The translations under genes and the position numbers were made by a program. From positions 1 to 64,000 of the forward strand of contig NZ_QAYC01000015.1 of the NCBI RefSeq assembly GCF_003053725.1: DNA of 64,000 nucleotides, in the 5' to 3' direction. Numbering within the stretch: the stretch's first letter is position 1; the number at the start of each line of letters is the position of its first letter. The stretch is from Rhodovulum kholense (GTDB lineage: Bacteria > Pseudomonadota > Alphaproteobacteria > Rhodobacterales > Rhodobacteraceae). Positions 39,239-46,623 of the stretch are shown here, piece by piece. Under the pieces are notes generated by a model. That model was given only the letters and a program-made list of their open reading frames with translations. It was not told where the DNA came from and did not search any database.

Positions 39239-40618
39239 ATGGCGGCGATCGAGGACAGGGCAGCCTTAGACAGGGCGGCCCGGCGGCGGATCTGGGGCTG
39301 GTGGTTCTACGACTGGGCCAGCCAGCCTTACGCGACCCTGCTGCTGACCTTCATCTTCGCGCCTTACGTCAAGGACCTGCTGGGCGACGGGTCCGCCGCG
39401 CAGGCGGCCTGGGGCTACGGGGTCGGCGCGGCGGGTCTGATCGTCGCCCTGCTGGCCCCCTGTCTTGGCGCGGTCGCCGATCTGAACGGGCACCGGCTGC
39501 CCTGGATCGCGCTTTTTTCTGTCTTCTACGTGCTGGGCGCGGCCGGGCTCTGGTTCGCCGATCCGACAGGCTTCAGCCTGCCCATGATCCTGTGCTTCTT
39601 CGGGCTCGGGCTCATCGGAATGGAATTCTCGGCGATCTTCGTCAATGCGATGCTGCCCGATCTGGGGCCGCGCGACGAGCTGGGGCGGATCTCGGGGTCG
39701 GGCTGGGCCTTCGGCTATGTCGGCGGGCTGATCGCGCTGGTGGTCACGCTGGCCTTCTTCGCCGAGAACGAGGCTGGACGGACCCTGATCGGCCGCGTTC
39801 CCGCCTTCGGGCTCGATCCCGACACGCGCGAGGGCACCCGCTTCGTCGGGCCCTTCGTGGCGATCTGGTACGCGGTCTCGATGATTCCCTTCTTTCTCTG
39901 GGTGCGCCTGCCCCGCACCCCGCGCCGCGCAACCCTGCGTCAGGCGCTGGGCCAGGTCGGGCCCGAGTTGTCGGCGACGTTGCGCCGTCTGCCCCGGACG
40001 CCAAGCCTGTCGGCCTATCTGCTGTCCTCGATGTTCTACCGCGACGCGCTGAACGGGATGTATGTCTTCGGCGGGATCTACGCGGCGGGGGTGCTGGGCT
40101 GGTCGGTGGTGGATGTGGGCCTTTTCGGCATCCTTGCGGTGGTGACCGCGGCGCTGGTCGCCTGGCTGGGCGGCAAGGCCGACCGGCGTTTCGGGCCGAA
40201 ACCGGTGATTCTCGTCTGCCTCGTGACGCTGATCGGGGCGGCGGTGCTGGCGATCTCGATCTCGCGCACGACGGTGCTGTGGCTGCCGGTGGCGCCGGGC
40301 TCGACCCTGCCCGATCTGGCCTATTACCTGGTCGGCGCAGTGATCGGCGCGGCGGGCGGTGCGATGCAAAGCGCAAGCCGCACGATGATGGTGCGTCAGG
40401 CCAATCCGGAACGAATGACCGAAAGCTTCGGGCTTTACGCGCTGTCGGGCAAGGCCACCGCCTTTCTGGCGCCGATGTCGATCGGGATTGTGACCGATCT
40501 CACCGGCTCGCAGCCCGCGGGCATTATCCCCCTGGTTGTGCTTTTCCTGCTGGGGCTCGGTCTGCTAGGCTTCGTCCGGGCAGAGGGCGAACGGGCGGAT
40601 CGATGGCAAACACCCTGA
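39239..40618 (+). CDS. MFS transporter of the Atg22/UMF1 type
   Basis: A 459-residue membrane protein with about 12 helices. The N-terminal WGWWFYDWASQPYATLLLTFIFAPYV is the hallmark of the Atg22-like (UMF1) branch of the major facilitator superfamily. LPWIALFSVFYVLGAAG and GGAMQSASRTMMVRQANPERMTESFGLYALSGKATAFLAP are further family signatures. Yeast Atg22 exports amino acids from the vacuole; bacterial substrates are unknown. The start could be 39239 (used here) or an ATG 12 codons upstream; neither has a strong ribosome site. It overlaps mepA by 16 bases. Confidence 0.82.
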   Translation: MAAIEDRAALDRAARRRIWGWWFYDWASQPYATLLLTFIFAPYVKDLLGDGSAAQAAWGYGVGAAGLIVALLAPCLGAVADLNGHRLPWIALFSVFYVLGAAGLWFADPTGFSLPMILCFFGLGLIGMEFSAIFVNAMLPDLGPRDELGRISGSGWAFGYVGGLIALVVTLAFFAENEAGRTLIGRVPAFGLDPDTREGTRFVGPFVAIWYAVSMIPFFLWVRLPRTPRRATLRQALGQVGPELSATLRRLPRTPSLSAYLLSSMFYRDALNGMYVFGGIYAAGVLGWSVVDVGLFGILAVVTAALVAWLGGKADRRFGPKPVILVCLVTLIGAAVLAISISRTTVLWLPVAPGSTLPDLAYYLVGAVIGAAGGAMQSASRTMMVRQANPERMTESFGLYALSGKATAFLAPMSIGIVTDLTGSQPAGIIPLVVLFLLGLGLLGFVRAEGERADRWQTP

Positions 40619-41514
40619 GCGGAAAGATCCTGGCGCTGGCACTGGCGGTCGCGACCGCCCTGCCGGTCTCGGCGGCGCCGACGGCGGCTTCGCTGTTCGG
40701 GGCCGAAAAGCGGGCCTCGCGGCAGGCGCCCCAGCCCATCGGCACCTATGCCAGGGGCTGCGGCGCCGGGCTGGTGCAACTGCCGGAAACCGGCCCGACC
40801 TGGCAGGCGATGCGGCTGTCGCGCAACCGCAACTGGGGCCAGCCCGAGATGATCGCCTTCATCCAGCGGCTGGGCGCCCACGCCGCCGCCATCGGCTGGA
40901 AGGGCATCTATGTCGGCGATATCAGCCAGCCCCGGGGCGGCCCGATGACCAGCGGCCATGCCTCGCATCAGATCGGGCTCGACGCCGATATCTGGATGCT
41001 GCCGCCCAGGCGGCTGAACCTGACGCGGGCGGAACGGGAATCGCTTTCGTCGATTTCGGTGCGCTCGGCTGATCAGCGCCGGGTGAACGGCAATTATACC
41101 GCCGCCCATGCAGCACTTTTGCGCGCCGCGGCGATGGACCCGGCGGTCGACCGGATCTTCGTCACCGCCCCGGTCAAGATCGAGATGTGCAAACATGCGA
41201 CCCGGGCCGACCGCGCCTGGCTGCAGAAGATCCGCCCGCTTTACGGGCATAACACGCATTTTCACGTGCGTTTGAAATGTCCGCCCGGCGCGCGCAGTTG
41301 CGAGACCCAGCGGCCCACGGTAGCGGAACTGTCGAAGGGCGGGGATGGCTGCGACGAGACGCTGACATGGTGGGTGACCGACTATCTCGATCCGCCGAAA
41401 AAGGCGGCCCGGCCAGCGCAACCGGCCAAGCCCGAGCCGAGAAAGCGGGGCGCGCGCGAGTTCACCATGACCGACCTGCCCCGCGAATGCCGCGCCGTGC
41501 TGGCCTCGGACTGA
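40603..41514 (+). CDS. mepA: Penicillin-insensitive murein endopeptidase
   Basis: A 303-residue periplasmic LAS-family metallopeptidase cutting D-Ala-meso-DAP cross-links. It has a signal peptide (ILALALAVATALPVSAA). The zinc site is formed by His/Asp in GHASHQIGLDADIW and by His in YGHNTHFHVRLKCP. Paired cysteines (ARGCGAG, KIEMCKHA, KCPPGARSCE, GGDGCDE) suggest disulfides as in E. coli MepA. A Lys/Pro-rich linker near residue 265 precedes the C-terminus. It starts inside the end of the MFS gene and overlaps the next gene by 28 bases, so the three form an operon. Confidence 0.92.
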   Translation: MANTLSGKILALALAVATALPVSAAPTAASLFGAEKRASRQAPQPIGTYARGCGAGLVQLPETGPTWQAMRLSRNRNWGQPEMIAFIQRLGAHAAAIGWKGIYVGDISQPRGGPMTSGHASHQIGLDADIWMLPPRRLNLTRAERESLSSISVRSADQRRVNGNYTAAHAALLRAAAMDPAVDRIFVTAPVKIEMCKHATRADRAWLQKIRPLYGHNTHFHVRLKCPPGARSCETQRPTVAELSKGGDGCDETLTWWVTDYLDPPKKAARPAQPAKPEPRKRGAREFTMTDLPRECRAVLASD

Positions 41515-42404
41515 GCCTCGCCGCCGGTCTTCTGGTCTTGGGCGCGACGGCCCCGTCGCCGCGCGCGGCCCCCGGGACCCAGGTCGAGCTGGTGGCGGAA
41601 CTGGCGGTCGCCAAGACCGCCGCGACGCAGGGGCTGTCGGGGCTCGAGCTTTCGGCAGATGGCACGCACGGCCTTCTGGTCGCCGACCGGGGCTGGCGGC
41701 TGGATGTCACCATCGCCCGCAGGGACGAGACCCCCGTCGCACTGCGGGTCTCGCCGCCGCTGCGCCTGACCGGCCCGGACGGGCACCCGCTGGAGGGGCG
41801 GGCCGAGACCGATGCCGAGGCGCTGGCGCTGGCGTCCGACGGCACGCTTTTCGTGGCCTTCGAGGGCGATCACCGGATCCTGCGCTGGGCGCCGGGGGCG
41901 GTGCGGCCCGCGCCGATGGACCCGTCGCCCGACGCCGCCGCCTATCCCGAGAATGGCGGGATCGAGGCGCTGGCGCTGGGCCCGGACGGCGCGCTTTACG
42001 CCATTCCCGAACGCTGGGAGGTGGACGGGGCGATCCCGGTCTACCGCCATGACGGCCGGGGCTGGACCCTGGCCGCCAGCCTGACGCCGCAGGGGCGGTT
42101 TCACCCCTCGGGTGCCGATTTCGGCCCTGACGGGCGGCTTTATCTTCTGGAACGCGCCTTCGACGGGCCTTTCGGCTTTCGCAGCCGGGTCCGGCGCATC
42201 GCTCTGGGACCCGAAGGCGCGACCGAAGACAGCGTCTTGCTGGAAACCGGGTCGGGCCGGCACGGCAATCTGGAAGGCCTGGCGGTCTGGCGCGATGCGG
42301 CCGGGGCGATCCGGCTGAGCATGGTCAGCGACGACAACGGGCTGGCGATCCAGCGCAACCAGTTCGTCGAATACCGGGTTGTCAGCGGCGCGGCGGGGCT
42401 GTAG
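41487..42404 (+). CDS. Esterase-like activity of phytase family protein
   Basis: A 305-residue exported protein. A signal peptide (MPRRAGLGLSLAAGLLVLGATAPSPRAA) is followed by a beta-propeller-like chain with GLSGLELSADGTHGLLVADRGW, TDAEALALASDGTLFVAFEGDHRI, NGGIEALALGPDGALYAIPE and GNLEGLAVWRD, typical of the esterase-like phytase family. Enzymatic activity is not proven for most members. The start at 41487, inside the end of mepA, is supported by the signal peptide that follows directly. Confidence 0.82.
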   Translation: MPRRAGLGLSLAAGLLVLGATAPSPRAAPGTQVELVAELAVAKTAATQGLSGLELSADGTHGLLVADRGWRLDVTIARRDETPVALRVSPPLRLTGPDGHPLEGRAETDAEALALASDGTLFVAFEGDHRILRWAPGAVRPAPMDPSPDAAAYPENGGIEALALGPDGALYAIPERWEVDGAIPVYRHDGRGWTLAASLTPQGRFHPSGADFGPDGRLYLLERAFDGPFGFRSRVRRIALGPEGATEDSVLLETGSGRHGNLEGLAVWRDAAGAIRLSMVSDDNGLAIQRNQFVEYRVVSGAAGL

Positions 42405-42473
42405 ACAGCCGCGTCCGTCGGGCGTCCCGCGCGGACCAAGTCTCCGCGACCTTGCCAAAACGGAACTCGCTGC

Positions 42474-43094
42474 ATGACCCGTCTTCTTCCCGGCATCCTT
42501 GCCATGGCCGCCATTGTCGTGGCCTCGAATATCCTCGTCCAGGTCCTGTTCGGCCAATGGCTGACCCTGGGCGCCTTCACCTATCCGCTGGCCTTTCTCG
42601 TGACCGACGTGATGAACCGCGTCTATGGTGTGGCCGCGGCCCGCCGCGTGGTCCTGGCGGGCTTCGTGGTGGGGGTGATCTGCTCCTTCATAGGCACCCA
42701 GATCCAGGGCGAGTTCGGCCCGATCGTCACCCTGCGCATCGCGATGGGCTCGGGGCTGGCCTTCCTGTCGGCCCAACTGCTGGACGTGGCGGTCTTCGAC
42801 CGGCTGCGCGCGGGGCGCTGGTGGCGCGCGCCGCTTGCCTCGACGCTGGTGGGGTCGAGCGTCGACACCCTGATCTTCTTCAGCGTCGCGTTCTCCGGCA
42901 CGCTCGCCGTTCTCGAACCCGGCAACGACGTCTCCTGGGCGGGTGAAATGCTGCCGCTTCTGGGCGTCGGACCGCAGGTTCCGCTGTGGGTGTCGCTCGC
43001 GCTGGCGGACTGGAGTGTAAAACTTGCTCTCGCCTTGATCGCTCTCGTTCCATTCCGCCTCATTGTTGGGCGTCTGACCGCACAGCTAGCGTGA
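42474..43094 (+). CDS. Queuosine precursor transporter (YhhQ/QPTR family)
   Basis: A 206-residue inner-membrane protein with about six helices. Family signatures: TLGAFTYPLAFLVTDVMNRVYG near the N-terminus, GEFGPIVTLRIAMGSGLAFLSAQLLDVAVFDRLR and STLVGSSVDTLIFFSVAF. YhhQ-type proteins import preQ0/preQ1 for the tRNA modification queuosine. No preQ1 riboswitch could be recognised in the 69 bases upstream. A structured RNA region with a terminator follows. Confidence 0.88.
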   Translation: MTRLLPGILAMAAIVVASNILVQVLFGQWLTLGAFTYPLAFLVTDVMNRVYGVAAARRVVLAGFVVGVICSFIGTQIQGEFGPIVTLRIAMGSGLAFLSAQLLDVAVFDRLRAGRWWRAPLASTLVGSSVDTLIFFSVAFSGTLAVLEPGNDVSWAGEMLPLLGVGPQVPLWVSLALADWSVKLALALIALVPFRLIVGRLTAQLA

Positions 43095-43146
43095 ATTAAC
43101 TGGACATATACCAGATCTGTGGCAGGCTGAACTCAACGGCAACAGC

Positions 43147-43162
43147 AGAAAGGAGGTGGTCC
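43147..43162 (+). promoter_or_regulatory. Extended Shine-Dalgarno nearly complementary to the 16S 3' end
   Basis: AGAAAGGAGGTGGTCC differs by one base from the full reverse complement of the alphaproteobacterial 16S rRNA 3' end (AGAAAGGAGGTGATCC, from general knowledge). AGGAGG ends seven bases before a GTG codon. Such length far exceeds a normal ribosome site. Confidence 0.7.
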
Positions 43163-43163
43163 A

Positions 43164-43220
43164 GTGTCTAGAGTGATATTGGAGAAGGGTCTTGGAACAG
43201 TCAGGGGGGCCGTGGTCTGA
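43164..43220 (+). CDS. 18-codon mini-ORF with extreme ribosome binding site
   Basis: GTG-initiated frame MSRVILEKGLGTVRGAVV, ending in TGA. The coding claim rests on the almost perfect anti-16S sequence at ideal spacing, not on homology. The peptide is basic and mildly amphipathic, with no signal peptide. It may be a leader peptide or a functional microprotein. If it is a leader, ribosome occupancy here could decide the folding of the downstream stems and terminator, 190 bases ahead of the rescue factor gene arfB. Confidence 0.5.
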   Translation: MSRVILEKGLGTVRGAVV

Positions 43221-43289
43221 GGGCAATCCCTGGGACTGAAATCTTCTGATTGGGCCCACGCTCTAACCGGGCCATCTCCGTAGCTCTCG

Positions 43290-43320
43290 GGGCCGTTCGC
43301 AAGAACGGCCCTTTCCGTTT
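43290..43320 (+). terminator. Intrinsic terminator before arfB
   Basis: Perfect 9-bp stem GGGCCGTTC / GAACGGCCC closed by a GCAA tetraloop, then TTTCCGTTT. It ends the mini-ORF transcript and separates it from arfB, which starts at 43414. Confidence 0.8.
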
Positions 43321-43413
43321 CGCATCCTTGAAGCTTTGCCGCCTCGAATGACGGTGGGGCCGCCGGGCGAACCGGGCCCTTGCGTCCCGCCGTTGCCGCG
43401 ATAGGGTCCCACC

Positions 43414-43836
43414 ATGCTGCGCATCACCGATACCGTCGCCCTTGCGGACTGGGAACTGACCGAGGTCTTTTCCCGCTCGTCCGGACCCGGCGGGCAGAAC
43501 GTCAACAAGGTCTCGACCGCGGTCGATCTGCGCTTCGAGGCAGAGCGGTCACCGAACCTGCCGGGCCCGGTCAAGGCCCGGCTGAAGCGGCTGGCCGGGC
43601 GGCGCTGGACCCAGGATGGCGCGGTGCTGATCCGGGTCGAAGAGACCCGCAGTCAGGCCCGCAACCGCGAGATCGCCCGCGAGCGGCTGGCCGAGCTGAT
43701 CCGGAAGGCGCTGGAAAAGCCCAAGCGGCGGGTGCCGACCCGGCCCACGCTGGGCTCGCAACGGCGAAGGCTCGCGGCCAAGAAGGAACGCGGCGCGGTC
43801 AAGGCGCTGCGCGGTACCATTGCACCGGACGACTGA
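43414..43836 (+). CDS. arfB: Alternative ribosome-rescue factor B (peptidyl-tRNA hydrolase)
   Basis: A 140-residue release-factor-like protein. The catalytic GGQ motif lies in SRSSGPGGQNVNKVSTAVDLRF, and the C-terminal tail is rich in Arg and Lys (PKRRVPTRPTLGSQRRRLAAKKERGAVKALRG), the part that enters the empty mRNA channel of stalled ribosomes. It frees ribosomes on mRNAs lacking stop codons, backing up tmRNA. Length fits ArfB (YaeJ). It sits behind the mini-ORF/terminator region. Confidence 0.92.
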   Translation: MLRITDTVALADWELTEVFSRSSGPGGQNVNKVSTAVDLRFEAERSPNLPGPVKARLKRLAGRRWTQDGAVLIRVEETRSQARNREIARERLAELIRKALEKPKRRVPTRPTLGSQRRRLAAKKERGAVKALRGTIAPDD

Positions 43837-43866
43837 GCTACGTCCCGGCTGTGATGCGGCTTGGTC

Positions 43867-44154
43867 TCAGTCTACCGGATTGCACCGGTACCTCCTGGCC
43901 GGATTGGTCTCTGCCGCCCGGCTTGCGATTTCAGCGCACGCGGCGGCGTCGCCGGGGTCCGCGAATCCGAAAATGAGGGCAAGCTTCTCCCAGTGTCCGA
44001 ATACGTTCTGCATCTCCAGCCAGCACCCTCCGTCGGTCAGAGGATTGGTTCGGACAAATTCGATGAGCGCGCCGAGGTCGTCTTCGTAGTCGCCTGCCGA
44101 CGCAGGCAGTGCCTGAAGGAAGATCAGGGCTATAAGTCCAGCGTGAATTCTCAT
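43867..44154 (-). CDS. Small secreted protein of unknown function
   Basis: A 95-residue protein with a signal peptide (MRIHAGLIALIFLQALPASAG, cleavage after ASA) and a mature part of about 75 residues containing three Cys (GGCWLEMQ, AACAEIA, YRCNPVD). GAGGAGG sits well before the ATG. The sequence is visibly less GC-rich than the flanking genes (stretches such as GAATACGTTCTGC), hinting at recent acquisition or relaxed codon use. No domain is recognised; periplasmic location is inferred. It is convergent with arfB. Confidence 0.65.
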   Translation of the reverse strand: MRIHAGLIALIFLQALPASAGDYEDDLGALIEFVRTNPLTDGGCWLEMQNVFGHWEKLALIFGFADPGDAAACAEIASRAAETNPARRYRCNPVD

Positions 44155-44234
44155 TCTTGGCCTCCTCTTCCTATGCCTTTCTAGCCGGATTCGGATGGCT
44201 TATGCCGGTGTTGGTATTGGACGGTCCGAGGGAG

Positions 44235-45110
44235 TTAGGAAACGAACTCGTCCCGGGCGTAGCCCTGCAGGTATAGCAGCGCGGTCAGGTCGCCGTGATT
44301 GACCCGAAGCTCGCATTGGGCCGCGACCGAGGGCTTGGCATGCAGCGCGACGCCCGCGCCCGCAAGCCCCAGCATGCCCAGATCGTTCGCCCCGTCGCCG
44401 ACGGCCAGCGCATCCTCCAGCCCGATCCCAAGCCGGGCCGTGACCTCGCGCAGCGCCTCTACCTTGGCCTCGCGCCCCAGAATCGGCTCGGCCACGGTGC
44501 CGGTCAGGTGCCCGTCCTCGATCAGCAGTGTGTTGGCGCGGTACTCGTCGAAACCGAGCGCGGCTCCGACCTTCGAAGCGAAATTGGTGAAGCCGCCCGA
44601 AACCAGCAGCGCATGGGCGCCGTTGGCCTTCATTGTCGCGACCAGCGTCCGGCCGCCCGGCATGAAGGTGATCCGCTCGGCCAGCACCTTGTCGATGACG
44701 CTGGCATCGAGCCCCTTCAGCAGCCCGACCCGTTCGCGCAGCGCGCCGTGGAAATCCAGCTCGCCATTCATCGCCCGCGCGGTGATCTCGGCGACCCGCG
44801 GCCCGACGCCCGCCTCGGCGGCCAGTTCGTCGATGCATTCCTGCTGGATCATGGTCGAATCCATGTCGGCGATCAGCAGCCGCTTGCGGCGGCCCTCGGC
44901 GGGCTGGGCCACAAGATCGATCCCCAGCCCCTGCAGACCGTCCCAGACCTCGCGGAAATTGTCGGGCAGTGCCGCCACGGCAAATTCGGCGGCGATGCCG
45001 GGGGCCAGCCAGATCGCCTCGCCGCCGCCCCAGGCATCCCGAAGCGATTCGACGGTGCTGCGCTCGAGGGACGCGCGCGCGGGGTTGGTCAGAAGCGTGA
45101 CGACAGGCAT
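44235..45110 (-). CDS. serB: Phosphoserine phosphatase
   Basis: A 291-residue HAD-superfamily enzyme for the last step of serine synthesis. Motif I is LLIADMDSTMIQQECIDELA, motif II ALLVSGGFTNFAS, motif III Lys in REAKVEALRE, and motif IV AVGDGANDLGMLGLAGAGVALHAKPSV. The N-terminal 75 residues form the small extra domain usual for this class. The start at 45110 gives the family N-terminus MPVVTLLTNP; its ribosome site is weak. No other ser gene is nearby. Confidence 0.93.
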   Translation of the reverse strand: MPVVTLLTNPARASLERSTVESLRDAWGGGEAIWLAPGIAAEFAVAALPDNFREVWDGLQGLGIDLVAQPAEGRRKRLLIADMDSTMIQQECIDELAAEAGVGPRVAEITARAMNGELDFHGALRERVGLLKGLDASVIDKVLAERITFMPGGRTLVATMKANGAHALLVSGGFTNFASKVGAALGFDEYRANTLLIEDGHLTGTVAEPILGREAKVEALREVTARLGIGLEDALAVGDGANDLGMLGLAGAGVALHAKPSVAAQCELRVNHGDLTALLYLQGYARDEFVS

Positions 45111-45246
45111 GGGGCAGGTTCCGATCGGCTGCTGGGCGCCGCAAAAGCGCGGTCGCGGGCCGGAATAGCCCAGCTCCGGGTCGTGCGCCAGAGCGGCGGG
45201 GGCGCACCCGGCATCGCCGCCCTGCCGCAAGACCCGGGGGCGCGGA

Positions 45247-45897
45247 TCAGGTTGCGAGGAACTTCAGCCCCTGGGTCACGTCGGTCCGCACGGCCAGCCG
45301 CAGCGCCGGTTCGTCCCCGACCCGAAGCGCCGCGAGGATCATCCGGTGATGCTGCGGCGGTTCGGTCCGGCCGAGCCGCCCGTAGAACGACCGCATCGTC
45401 GGGCCAAGCTGCAGCCAGACCGTCTCGGCGATGGCCAGCATCGCGGGGGCCTGGGCGCGCAGGTAAAGCGCGCGGTGGAATTCGAGGTTCTTCTGGATAT
45501 AGGCGACCGCATCGCCCCGCGCGACGACCTCGCCGATTTCGGCATTGATCTTCTGCATCCGCTCGATCAGCGCGAAATGCGCGCGGGGCAGGGCGCGGCT
45601 GGCCAGTTCGGGTTCCAGCAACCCGCGCAGCGAGGCCAGTTCCTCCAGCCGCTCGTTCGACAGCTCGGGCGTCGAGACCCGCCCCGACGAGGACAGGGTC
45701 AGCGCGCCCTCGGCCACGAGCCGCCGCACCGCCTCGCGGGCAGGGGTCATCGACACGCCAAAGCTCTTGCCGATTCCCCTCAGCGTCAGGGGCGCGCCGG
45801 GGGCCAGTTCGCCATGCATGATCTGGGTCCGGAGCGTGCGGTAAAGACGCTCATGGGCCGCAGAGACGGTCTCGCCGGGGCGGGTCTGGATCAGCAT
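45247..45897 (-). CDS. GntR-family transcriptional regulator (FadR/FCD subfamily)
   Basis: A 216-residue regulator. The N-terminal winged helix covers about residues 12-80: LYRTLRTQIMHGELAPGAPLTLRGIGKSFGVSMTPAREAVRRLVAEGAL. The C-terminal FCD domain includes LASLRGLLEPELA and the metal-site His in EFHRALY. FCD regulators sense small carboxylic acids. The effector and targets are unknown; the nearest catabolic locus is the liv/acyl-CoA operon starting about 1.3 kb away on the same strand, but a link is only a guess. Confidence 0.9.
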   Translation of the reverse strand: MLIQTRPGETVSAAHERLYRTLRTQIMHGELAPGAPLTLRGIGKSFGVSMTPAREAVRRLVAEGALTLSSSGRVSTPELSNERLEELASLRGLLEPELASRALPRAHFALIERMQKINAEIGEVVARGDAVAYIQKNLEFHRALYLRAQAPAMLAIAETVWLQLGPTMRSFYGRLGRTEPPQHHRMILAALRVGDEPALRLAVRTDVTQGLKFLAT

Positions 45898-45930
45898 GGG
45901 GGCGATAGTGCTGCCGCGCGGGGTCGGGCG

Positions 45931-46623
45931 TCAATCGCCGAAACGCACCCGGTGAAGCGCCGCGCCATTGGCCCGGAGCCAGGCGCGGGGCGCTTCATAG
46001 CCCGGCATCAGCCGCGCGACCACGGCCCAGAAGGCGGGCGAGTGGTTCATCTCGACCAGGTGCGCCACCTCATGGGCCGCGACATAGTCCAGCACCTTGG
46101 GCGGGGCCATGATCAGCCGCCAGGCGAACATCAGATCGCCCCGCGAGGAACAGGACCCCCAGCGCGAGCGGGCGTCGCGAAGCGTGAGCCGCCGGTAGGA
46201 CAGGCCCAGCGCGGCGGTATAGCCGTCGGCCGCCGCCGCCAGACGCGCCCGCGCCCGGGTCTTCAGGAAGGCCTGAACACGGGCGGGCACCTCGGACGCG
46301 GGGCCGGGCACCGCCAGCGCGCCATCCTGCAGCCGGGGCGCCCTGCCGGTGCCGGGCACCAGCGGCAGCGCGCGGCCCTCGTAGGGCACGCTGCCGCCCG
46401 CGCGCACCACCTGATCCTCGGGCCGCGCCGACAGGTGCCGGCGGATCCAGGCCTCTTTCTCTCGGACGAAGGCCAGCCCGTCGGCTTCGGGGGCGCGCTG
46501 GGGCAGGGTCAGCGTCACCCGGCCGTCAAGCTGCGAGACGCGCAGGGAATAGCGCCGCGCCCGCGCCGAACGGCGCAGCGTGACCTCAAGCGGCGGATCG
46601 CCGGGAATGCGGGTGATGCTCAT
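45931..46623 (-). CDS. SprT/DUF45-type zinc metallopeptidase (M48 family)
   Basis: A 230-residue cytoplasmic protein of the YgjP/DUF45 group. The zinc site HEVAH lies in DYVAAHEVAHLVEMNHSPAFWAVVARLMPGYE; SRWGSCSSRGDLMFAWRLIMAP is the conserved segment before it. Relatives have no well-established function. GAGG precedes the chosen start at 46623; an ATG nine codons earlier is possible. It is divergent from the TIGR02300 gene. Confidence 0.85.
   Translation of the reverse strand: MSITRIPGDPPLEVTLRRSARARRYSLRVSQLDGRVTLTLPQRAPEADGLAFVREKEAWIRRHLSARPEDQVVRAGGSVPYEGRALPLVPGTGRAPRLQDGALAVPGPASEVPARVQAFLKTRARARLAAAADGYTAALGLSYRRLTLRDARSRWGSCSSRGDLMFAWRLIMAPPKVLDYVAAHEVAHLVEMNHSPAFWAVVARLMPGYEAPRAWLRANGAALHRVRFGD

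Follow-up and report, generated by a model that had tools for sequence, protein, structure and literature searches.

A probable free-standing small RNA gene, divergently related to the Caulobacter small RNA CC2171, between yhhQ and arfB of Rhodovulum kholense

The gap between yhhQ and arfB in Rhodovulum kholense holds an over-long ribosome-binding site, a short reading frame and a terminator, and it raises the question of whether these parts serve arfB or constitute a gene of their own. In the window, by which we mean the whole 64,000-nucleotide stretch of DNA that was analysed, yhhQ (the label used here for a queuosine-precursor transporter gene; 42474-43094; TIGR00697, 94 bits against a cut-off of 51) is followed by arfB (start at 43414; ArfB equivalog, 181 bits against a cut-off of 100), and the element lies between them at about 43135-43315 on the plus strand. 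The original prediction, made from the letters alone, had described a near-complete complement of the 16S rRNA 3' end, an 18-codon ORF opening with GTG, structured RNA and a GCAA-loop terminator ahead of arfB, and this layout was borne out. Of the three readings that it had offered, the stand-alone small mRNA is well supported, by an own promoter, a terminator and a selected start and stop, and an arfB attenuator that senses the status of the ribosomes is not supported; the third was a ribosome-binding decoy. Comparison with related loci favours a small RNA gene that stands by itself, between a promoter and a terminator of its own; the RNA looks like one operated by the binding of ribosomes, not like a control device for arfB. 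That this gene is independent, terminated and translated, and of the same kind as CC2171, we regard as on balance probable.

The most conspicuous part of the element is its extended Shine-Dalgarno (SD) sequence, AGAAAGGAGGTGGTCC (43147-43162, plus strand), which is the complement of GGATCACCTCCTTTCT save for a single position. This 16S 3' end was recovered from 3 of the 41 relatives searched, of which one belongs to the same family. The originally reported match of 15 in 16 bases was correct in its letters, including the single mismatch, an A-to-G change at which pairing is kept as G-U. The computed duplex comprises 19 pairs, extends to the last base of the 16S RNA and has an energy of -35.1 kcal/mol, versus -9.9 to -11.2 kcal/mol for three ordinary SD strings invented for comparison. 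At up to one mismatch, the element is the only match to the 16S 3'-end complement in its own draft genome. The 18-mer AAAGGAGGTGRTCCAGTG was matched once each in 134 of 198 family genomes (one genome per genus), and its backwards control had no match in these 198 genomes; across the whole genome collection, about 15 chance matches of the 18-mer are expected. Among 20 loci picked without the motif, the core GGAGGTG was present in every one, and the RTCC half that follows it often varied.

Behind this site, the GTG at 43164 opens a run of 18 codons that ends in TGA at 43218-43220 (MSRVILEKGLGTVRGAVV; 43164-43220, plus strand), and the variation among relatives indicates that this mini-ORF is genuine, with its start, frame and stop under selection. 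Two sets of loci were compared: 71 loci selected by the motif, and hence by GTG, in which 65 ORFs had 18 codons, and 20 further loci selected by an RNA model only. In the latter, the start was GTG in 17, TTG in 2 and ATG in 1, the spacing between SD and start was 3 to 5 (altered in three), and the ORF had 18 codons in 18 loci and 22 codons in 2. When the two sets were pooled, 83 of the 91 sequences had exactly 18 codons, and codon 19 was TGA in 39, TAG in 29, TAA in 15, TGG in none and another codon in 8 (Fisher test on the four TRR forms, P = 1.6e-11, a value that serves only as a guide since the sequences are related). No in-frame stop was found in codons 2 to 18 of the 91 sequences, versus 8.8 expected from column shuffles. 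A start was likewise present further afield: the best 30 loci of a class-wide Rfam search all carried NTG at the same position (21 GTG and 9 ATG), followed by ORFs of 20 to 26 codons.

A selected ORF may mean that the peptide is the function, in which case the element would be a plain small mRNA for a lineage-specific micropeptide (18 amino acids here, MSHCHxPR... in other orders) and the structure would merely limit its expression. The selected start, frame and stop fit this explanation, as do the likeness of the peptides within lineages (MSRxxLERGVGT here, MSHCH...TW..AS in other orders) and the in-frame length differences among the peptides of the other orders. Purifying selection on the peptide was looked for by pN/pS, a weak test for a short ORF inside a structured RNA, and gave no sign: the values were 0.82 for Rhodobacteraceae and 0.90 for the others, and the shifted frames of the Rhodobacteraceae set gave 0.65 and 0.77, such that the true frame was not the lower. 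A frame test that compared BLOSUM scores with permutations did not discriminate (z = 10.3, 9.7 and 5.6 for frames 0, 1 and 2). Moreover, the peptide changes between lineages though the SD, start and terminator stay, and codons 13 to 18 are scarcely conserved. We therefore consider the micropeptide explanation unlikely. Since the reading frame is kept and the peptide is without visible selection, it is translation itself, not the peptide, that seems to be selected and that may act as the signal.

Several codons shortly after the start are rare ones that recur: codon 3 is AGA in 67 and codon 12 is ACA in 65 of the 71 loci, codon 5 is ATA or GTA in 47, and codon 2 is TCT or TCA in 42. The frequencies of AGA and ATA (0.42 per 1000), ACA (1.09) and TCT (1.51) were measured on 40 genes of the window that were predicted by a composition rule. 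Constraint on the RNA sequence, not codon rarity, may explain this recurrence.

The structure into which the ORF is built was examined by folding and by covariation. The fold energy of 43140-43325 was -84.3 kcal/mol, versus -66.3 ± 4.8 kcal/mol for shuffled sequences (z = -3.8; none of 200 shuffles was as good). In the consensus fold, helix P1 pairs the SD core GGAGGTGG (43152-43159) with an internal anti-SD strand, CCATCTCC (43272-43279), which lies 5' of the terminator and resembles the 16S tail. Hairpin P2 (TCCAGTGTC with GATATTGGA; 43160-43183) contains the start codon; it is followed by P3, by P4 (43198-43208 with 43242-43252), by P5 (43213-43223 with 43228-43238), with the stop codon in its 5' strand, and by the intrinsic terminator with its GCAA loop and a T-rich stretch after it (43289-43312), all on the plus strand.

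Covariance modelling of the stems, as the original prediction had proposed, showed that the fold covaries, chiefly in P4, P5 and the terminator. In the model-fitted alignment of 71 loci, 88.6% of the cells were paired and 35 of 53 pairs had two-sided changes; these amounted to 348 cells, versus 115.7 in shuffled alignments and at most 113 with slid partners. The plain MAFFT alignment of 51 loci gave two-sided changes in 31 of 54 pairs and 138 such cells, versus 61.0 shuffled and at most 97 with slid partners. Run by itself on the plain alignment, RNAalifold recovered P1, P2, P3 and some pairs of the terminator, 25 pairs in all, of which 9 had two-sided changes, and it missed P4 and P5. Two-sided changes were seen in all 5 pairs of helix 5 and in 4 of the 5 pairs of helix 4 (both P4), as well as in all 10 pairs of helix 6 (P5), the cells of P5 being paired at 78% in the fitted and 58% in the plain alignment. 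By location, 256 of the 348 two-sided cells fell in P4 and P5, 73 in the terminator and 19 in P1 to P3; for the helices that are key to any switching, the evidence thus comes from folding and from one-sided changes that keep the pairs. In P2, 96% of the helix 2 cells were paired and only 4 cells had two-sided changes. The 3' strand of P1 varied mostly between bases that keep G-C, G-U, U-A or U-G pairs, and its outermost and innermost pairs were broken in 51 and 36 of the 71 rows. One-sided variation of this type in P1 and P2 is expected if one strand must also match the 16S RNA or code for peptide.

Taken together, the comparisons indicate an RNA with its own promoter motif and terminator, a short frame that is kept without measurable selection on the peptide, and a conserved fold in which the SD and the start codon lie in helices and the SD faces a 16S-tail-like strand close to the 3' end. 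From this arrangement we infer a function, its switching, sensing and output included. In the closed form, the SD would be bound by the internal 16S mimic; in the open form, it would pair with the 16S tail in a 30S subunit, and this subunit would then translate the mini-ORF through the structure as far as the stop codon in P5. The computed pairing with the 16S tail (-35.1 kcal/mol) is stronger than that with the internal partner alone (-26.7 kcal/mol), and the RNA would therefore open with the number of free, initiation-competent 30S subunits; the whole closed fold, at the energy given above, is more stable than either single pairing. The modelling thus suggests a two-state RNA opened by 30S binding. 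The readout would probably occur in trans and tune initiation on other mRNAs by either of two routes, through RNA stretches exposed in the open form or through 30S subunits that are simply held. This output step is the weakest part of the proposal. When the start region was blocked in the folding, the anti-SD strand re-paired with the GGAGA of codons 7 and 8 and the terminator stayed, suggesting that the anti-SD strand may not become free.

In the decoy reading, the over-long SD would trap 30S subunits in slow growth, perhaps as a check of the finished 16S tail, and the mini-ORF would merely free them. A complement of 19 pairs up to the last 16S base, far past an ordinary SD, speaks for such a sponge, as do the rare codons shortly after the start (AGA, ATA, ACA and TCT). 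However, with one gene copy per genome very high expression would be needed, the strand that hides the site is conserved, and the frame and the stop should matter little to a decoy. We do not think it likely that the element acts in this way, and a translated small RNA that opens upon 30S binding remains our preferred reading.

What, then, is the element related to? When positions 40000-46000 of the window were searched with Rfam at E values of up to 1, the sole match was RF01867, the Caulobacter sRNA CC2171, which covered 43140-43311 with E = 3.2e-6 to 4.6e-5 and scored 36.3 bits, short of the gathering cut-off of 75 bits. It was also the one RF01867 match in the genome, where none exceeded the cut-off. 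The alignment runs over the full length of the model (1-159 of 159) with the parts in the same order, its middle being aligned with low confidence. The helix of CAUUGUC with GACAAUG that characterizes CC2171 has neither of its strings at that place in the window, where the alignment marks nonstandard pairs and the window folds otherwise. On this evidence from sequence alignment, the element is a divergent relative of CC2171.

The kind is widespread. The covariance model R1, built from 51 of the 71 loci, matched in 177 of 198 family genomes (one per genus), some with a second or third match; class-wide, RF01867 matched in 85 of 385 genomes at E values of up to 0.001 and exceeded the cut-off in 13 of 385. 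None of the five same-family matches of the class search reached 75 bits, and the cut-off thus excludes the Rhodobacteraceae branch. At least 118 stretches were named in a scan that included Bosea, Methylobacterium, Bradyrhizobium, Ancylobacter, Brevundimonas, Phenylobacterium, Devosia and Falsiroseomonas, and a search for plasmid copies of the element gave no match. In a set of Bradyrhizobium/Rhodopseudomonas type (L124, L142, L148, L156, L157, L173, L177, L186, L188, L198, L211 and L212), a near-invariant KRCHLAGIAR ORF, mostly of 14 codons, was observed; in the predicted folds of L211, L212 and L148, its codons TGTCACCTC pair with the SD, which places the anti-SD within the ORF.

CC2171 itself appears as a table entry in PMC5596092 and in the Rfam update table of PMC11701678, and PMC4117421 cites Landt et al. 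(2008) as its source; no functional study of CC2171 or RF01867 was found in the literature searched, most subscription journals lying outside its scope. In PMC4117421, Schrader et al. report that most noncoding RNAs of Caulobacter derive from intergenic regions found by ribosome profiling to be untranslated and that two previously predicted ones are translated. It could be argued from the nearest Rfam family, which is listed as an sRNA, and from the typical size and terminator that the element is an ordinary trans-acting sRNA with base-pairing targets, its ORF being a by-product. We consider this improbable, given the selected stop codon and the lack of in-frame stops in codons 2 to 18. In a relative of a family filed as a small noncoding RNA, a start and a stop codon are thus maintained after an anti-16S site that is nearly complete, and if it is a ribosome-gauging RNA found class-wide, the sensing of free ribosomes would be directly testable in Rhodobacter and Caulobacter.

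The independence of the element from its neighbours is indicated by its ends. A joint promoter motif, TTGA-N2-N12..15-TGNCANNNT, lies upstream in 46 of the 71 loci and the -10 motif TGNCANNNT in 55 of 71, versus 0 of 71 for both in a control stretch. The window itself is outside the 46 and carries TGGACA as a -35-like box (43101-43106) and TGGCAGGCT as an extended -10-like box (43120-43128, both plus strand), from which we infer a transcription start near 43135. The motif is also present in L005, L031 and L046, where 1.5 to 2 kb upstream shows no yhhQ, and it is absent from L013 and L018. Of the 143 loci in the range L072 to L219, many of which are Rhodobacteraceae with another -10, only 9 had TTGA-N18..21-TANNNT in the 80 nt upstream. 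A terminator 3' of the element was found in all 71 loci, 70 by script and one by eye. Upstream, yhhQ was detected in 64 of 71 loci; among the seven misses, L047 covers only 191 nt there.

The original prediction had also proposed a search for the element and its neighbours in other genomes. This upheld the link to arfB in the family, where arfB was detected downstream in 61 of 71 loci, but not beyond it. In the remaining 10, arfB was undetected in 487 nt downstream (L045) or in 1.5 to 2 kb (the other nine), and the class-wide loci L072 to L101 had no arfB match, about 1.5 kb on either side being covered in most. In 26 chosen loci outside the family, the neighbouring genes, called by a simple ORF caller, vary by lineage, with an RNase R-like gene beside Bosea-like loci and a YaiI/DUF188-like gene beside Ancylobacter-like loci (both named by eye).

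The terminator-arfB gap was 11 to 246 nt in 59 of 61 loci and less than 40 nt in 24 of 61, values that are approximate where the first aligned arfB residue is not at the ATG. An SD-like string occurred in the last 25 nt before the arfB start in only 4 of 58 loci, TANNNT occurred within 22 nt of the ATG in 16 of 58 (3 of 58 in a control stretch), and in the window TTGCGT-16 nt-TAGGGT (43380-43407, plus strand) ends 6 nt before the ATG; arfB is therefore probably transcribed separately, as a leaderless mRNA, from a promoter directly after the terminator. Other arfB genes of the family show a similar leaderless tendency. That RNA polymerase reads through the terminator into arfB or stops there according to whether the mini-ORF is translated, as the linkage within the family and the short gaps might suggest, was rejected as the main reading and is very improbable, since arfB probably has its own -10 and no leader, the computed folds contained no antiterminator and kept the terminator in every blocked state, and the element is retained without arfB and beside other genes outside the family.

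Similar loci also occur beyond the class. The 18-mer was found in 18 nonalphaproteobacterial loci, whose ORFs had 9 to 21 codons in 15 and 24, 25 and 44 codons in the others, in records labelled Phycisphaerales, Planctomycetaceae, Myxococcales, Nitrospirae, Gemmatimonadota, Actinomycetota and others, bin labels that can err. Given the chance matches expected, single loci of this kind may be chance; the groups of like loci L151/L169, L128/L182, L175/L217 and L187/L209/L170 are less easily so. In L140 (Geminicoccaceae, which we take to belong to the class Alphaproteobacteria), an ORF of 57 codons follows the 18-mer and a search for a terminator found none, and the 18-mer is thus not a marker of the element alone. 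A loose terminator script succeeded in 16 of these 19 loci, a result that says little since it also matched 30 of 73 random places in them. Scores of R1 were unconvincing as proof of homology to other phyla (E = 0.0015 for L127; 0.04 to 0.24 for L117, L120, L111, L208 and L178) and did not support a common origin of the class RNA and the nonalphaproteobacterial groups.

Some of these loci were inspected individually. Thirteen (L151, L169, L187, L209, L170, L128, L182, L117, L118, L120, L193, L127 and L129) have the full anti-16S stretch and a short ORF, with GAGGTGG in 7 and a TAG stop in 6 of those 7; by eye, most have a hairpin with a T-run downstream, and none of the 13 matched an Rfam family at its cut-off. 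Two gammaproteobacterial loci (L175 and L217; SAR92, Cellvibrionales) carry AAAGGAGGTGATCCAGTG, a TCCAGTG...CACTGGGA hairpin and a terminator-like hairpin, and that of L175 adjoins tRNA genes. In a bin labelled Acidobacteria, L111:2623-2818 (minus strand) matched Ms_IGR-5 (RF02471) over the cut-off (47.7 against 45 bits), and this locus carries AAGGAGGTGGTCC and a layout similar to that of the element. It can be envisioned that a single functional kind of RNA, a "ribosome-tail mirror" that gauges free 30S subunits, exists bacteria-wide and unites CC2171 and Ms_IGR-5 with unnamed RNAs of Phycisphaerae, Myxococcota, Nitrospirota, Gemmatimonadota and others, an idea that we regard as doubtful. 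Such RNAs would pair with the whole 16S 3' end, hide that site by an internal copy of the 16S tail and have their mini-ORF translated for its own sake, in parallel to 6S RNA, which gauges RNA polymerase.

Of the known systems, CC2171 is closest, sharing with the element the 5' CAACA, the GAAAGGAGGUGRUCCAGUGUCU block, a length of about 170 nt and the terminator, but it has other middle helices and a different peptide, and in CC2171-type relatives the CATTGTC of the ORF pairs with GACAATG 5' of the terminator, unlike in the element. The actinobacterial sRNA Ms_IGR-5 shares AAGGAGGUGGUCC, after which come a hairpin that closes on GGAC, a stretch of CACC and the terminator; as to homology with the element, R1 gave only E = 0.067 for the Ms_IGR-5 locus L111, and RF02471 had no match in positions 40000-46000 of the window at E values of up to 1. 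As in dual-function and translated small RNAs, a selected short ORF lies on a terminated transcript, here as judged by comparison only. Anti-SD sRNAs of alphaproteobacteria are nicknamed "cuckoo" RNAs. Those of this type (RS0680a / SmelA075) are likewise built on SD/anti-SD complementarity but, according to PMC3927594, present anti-SD loops, whereas in the element the SD leads and the anti-SD is the internal partner. The dual-function attenuator RNA rnTrpL/peTrpL of Sinorhizobium also has a short ORF, of 14 codons, but is described in PMC10117765 as a leaderless trp attenuator RNA, whereas the element carries a promoter motif of its own and is followed by no fixed gene. Finally, in the extended SD-anti-SD sites of Staphylococcus, pairing past the core likewise steers initiation; there, according to PMC13009471, it is a feature of many mRNAs, whereas here about 16 to 19 nt are concentrated in one conserved small RNA.
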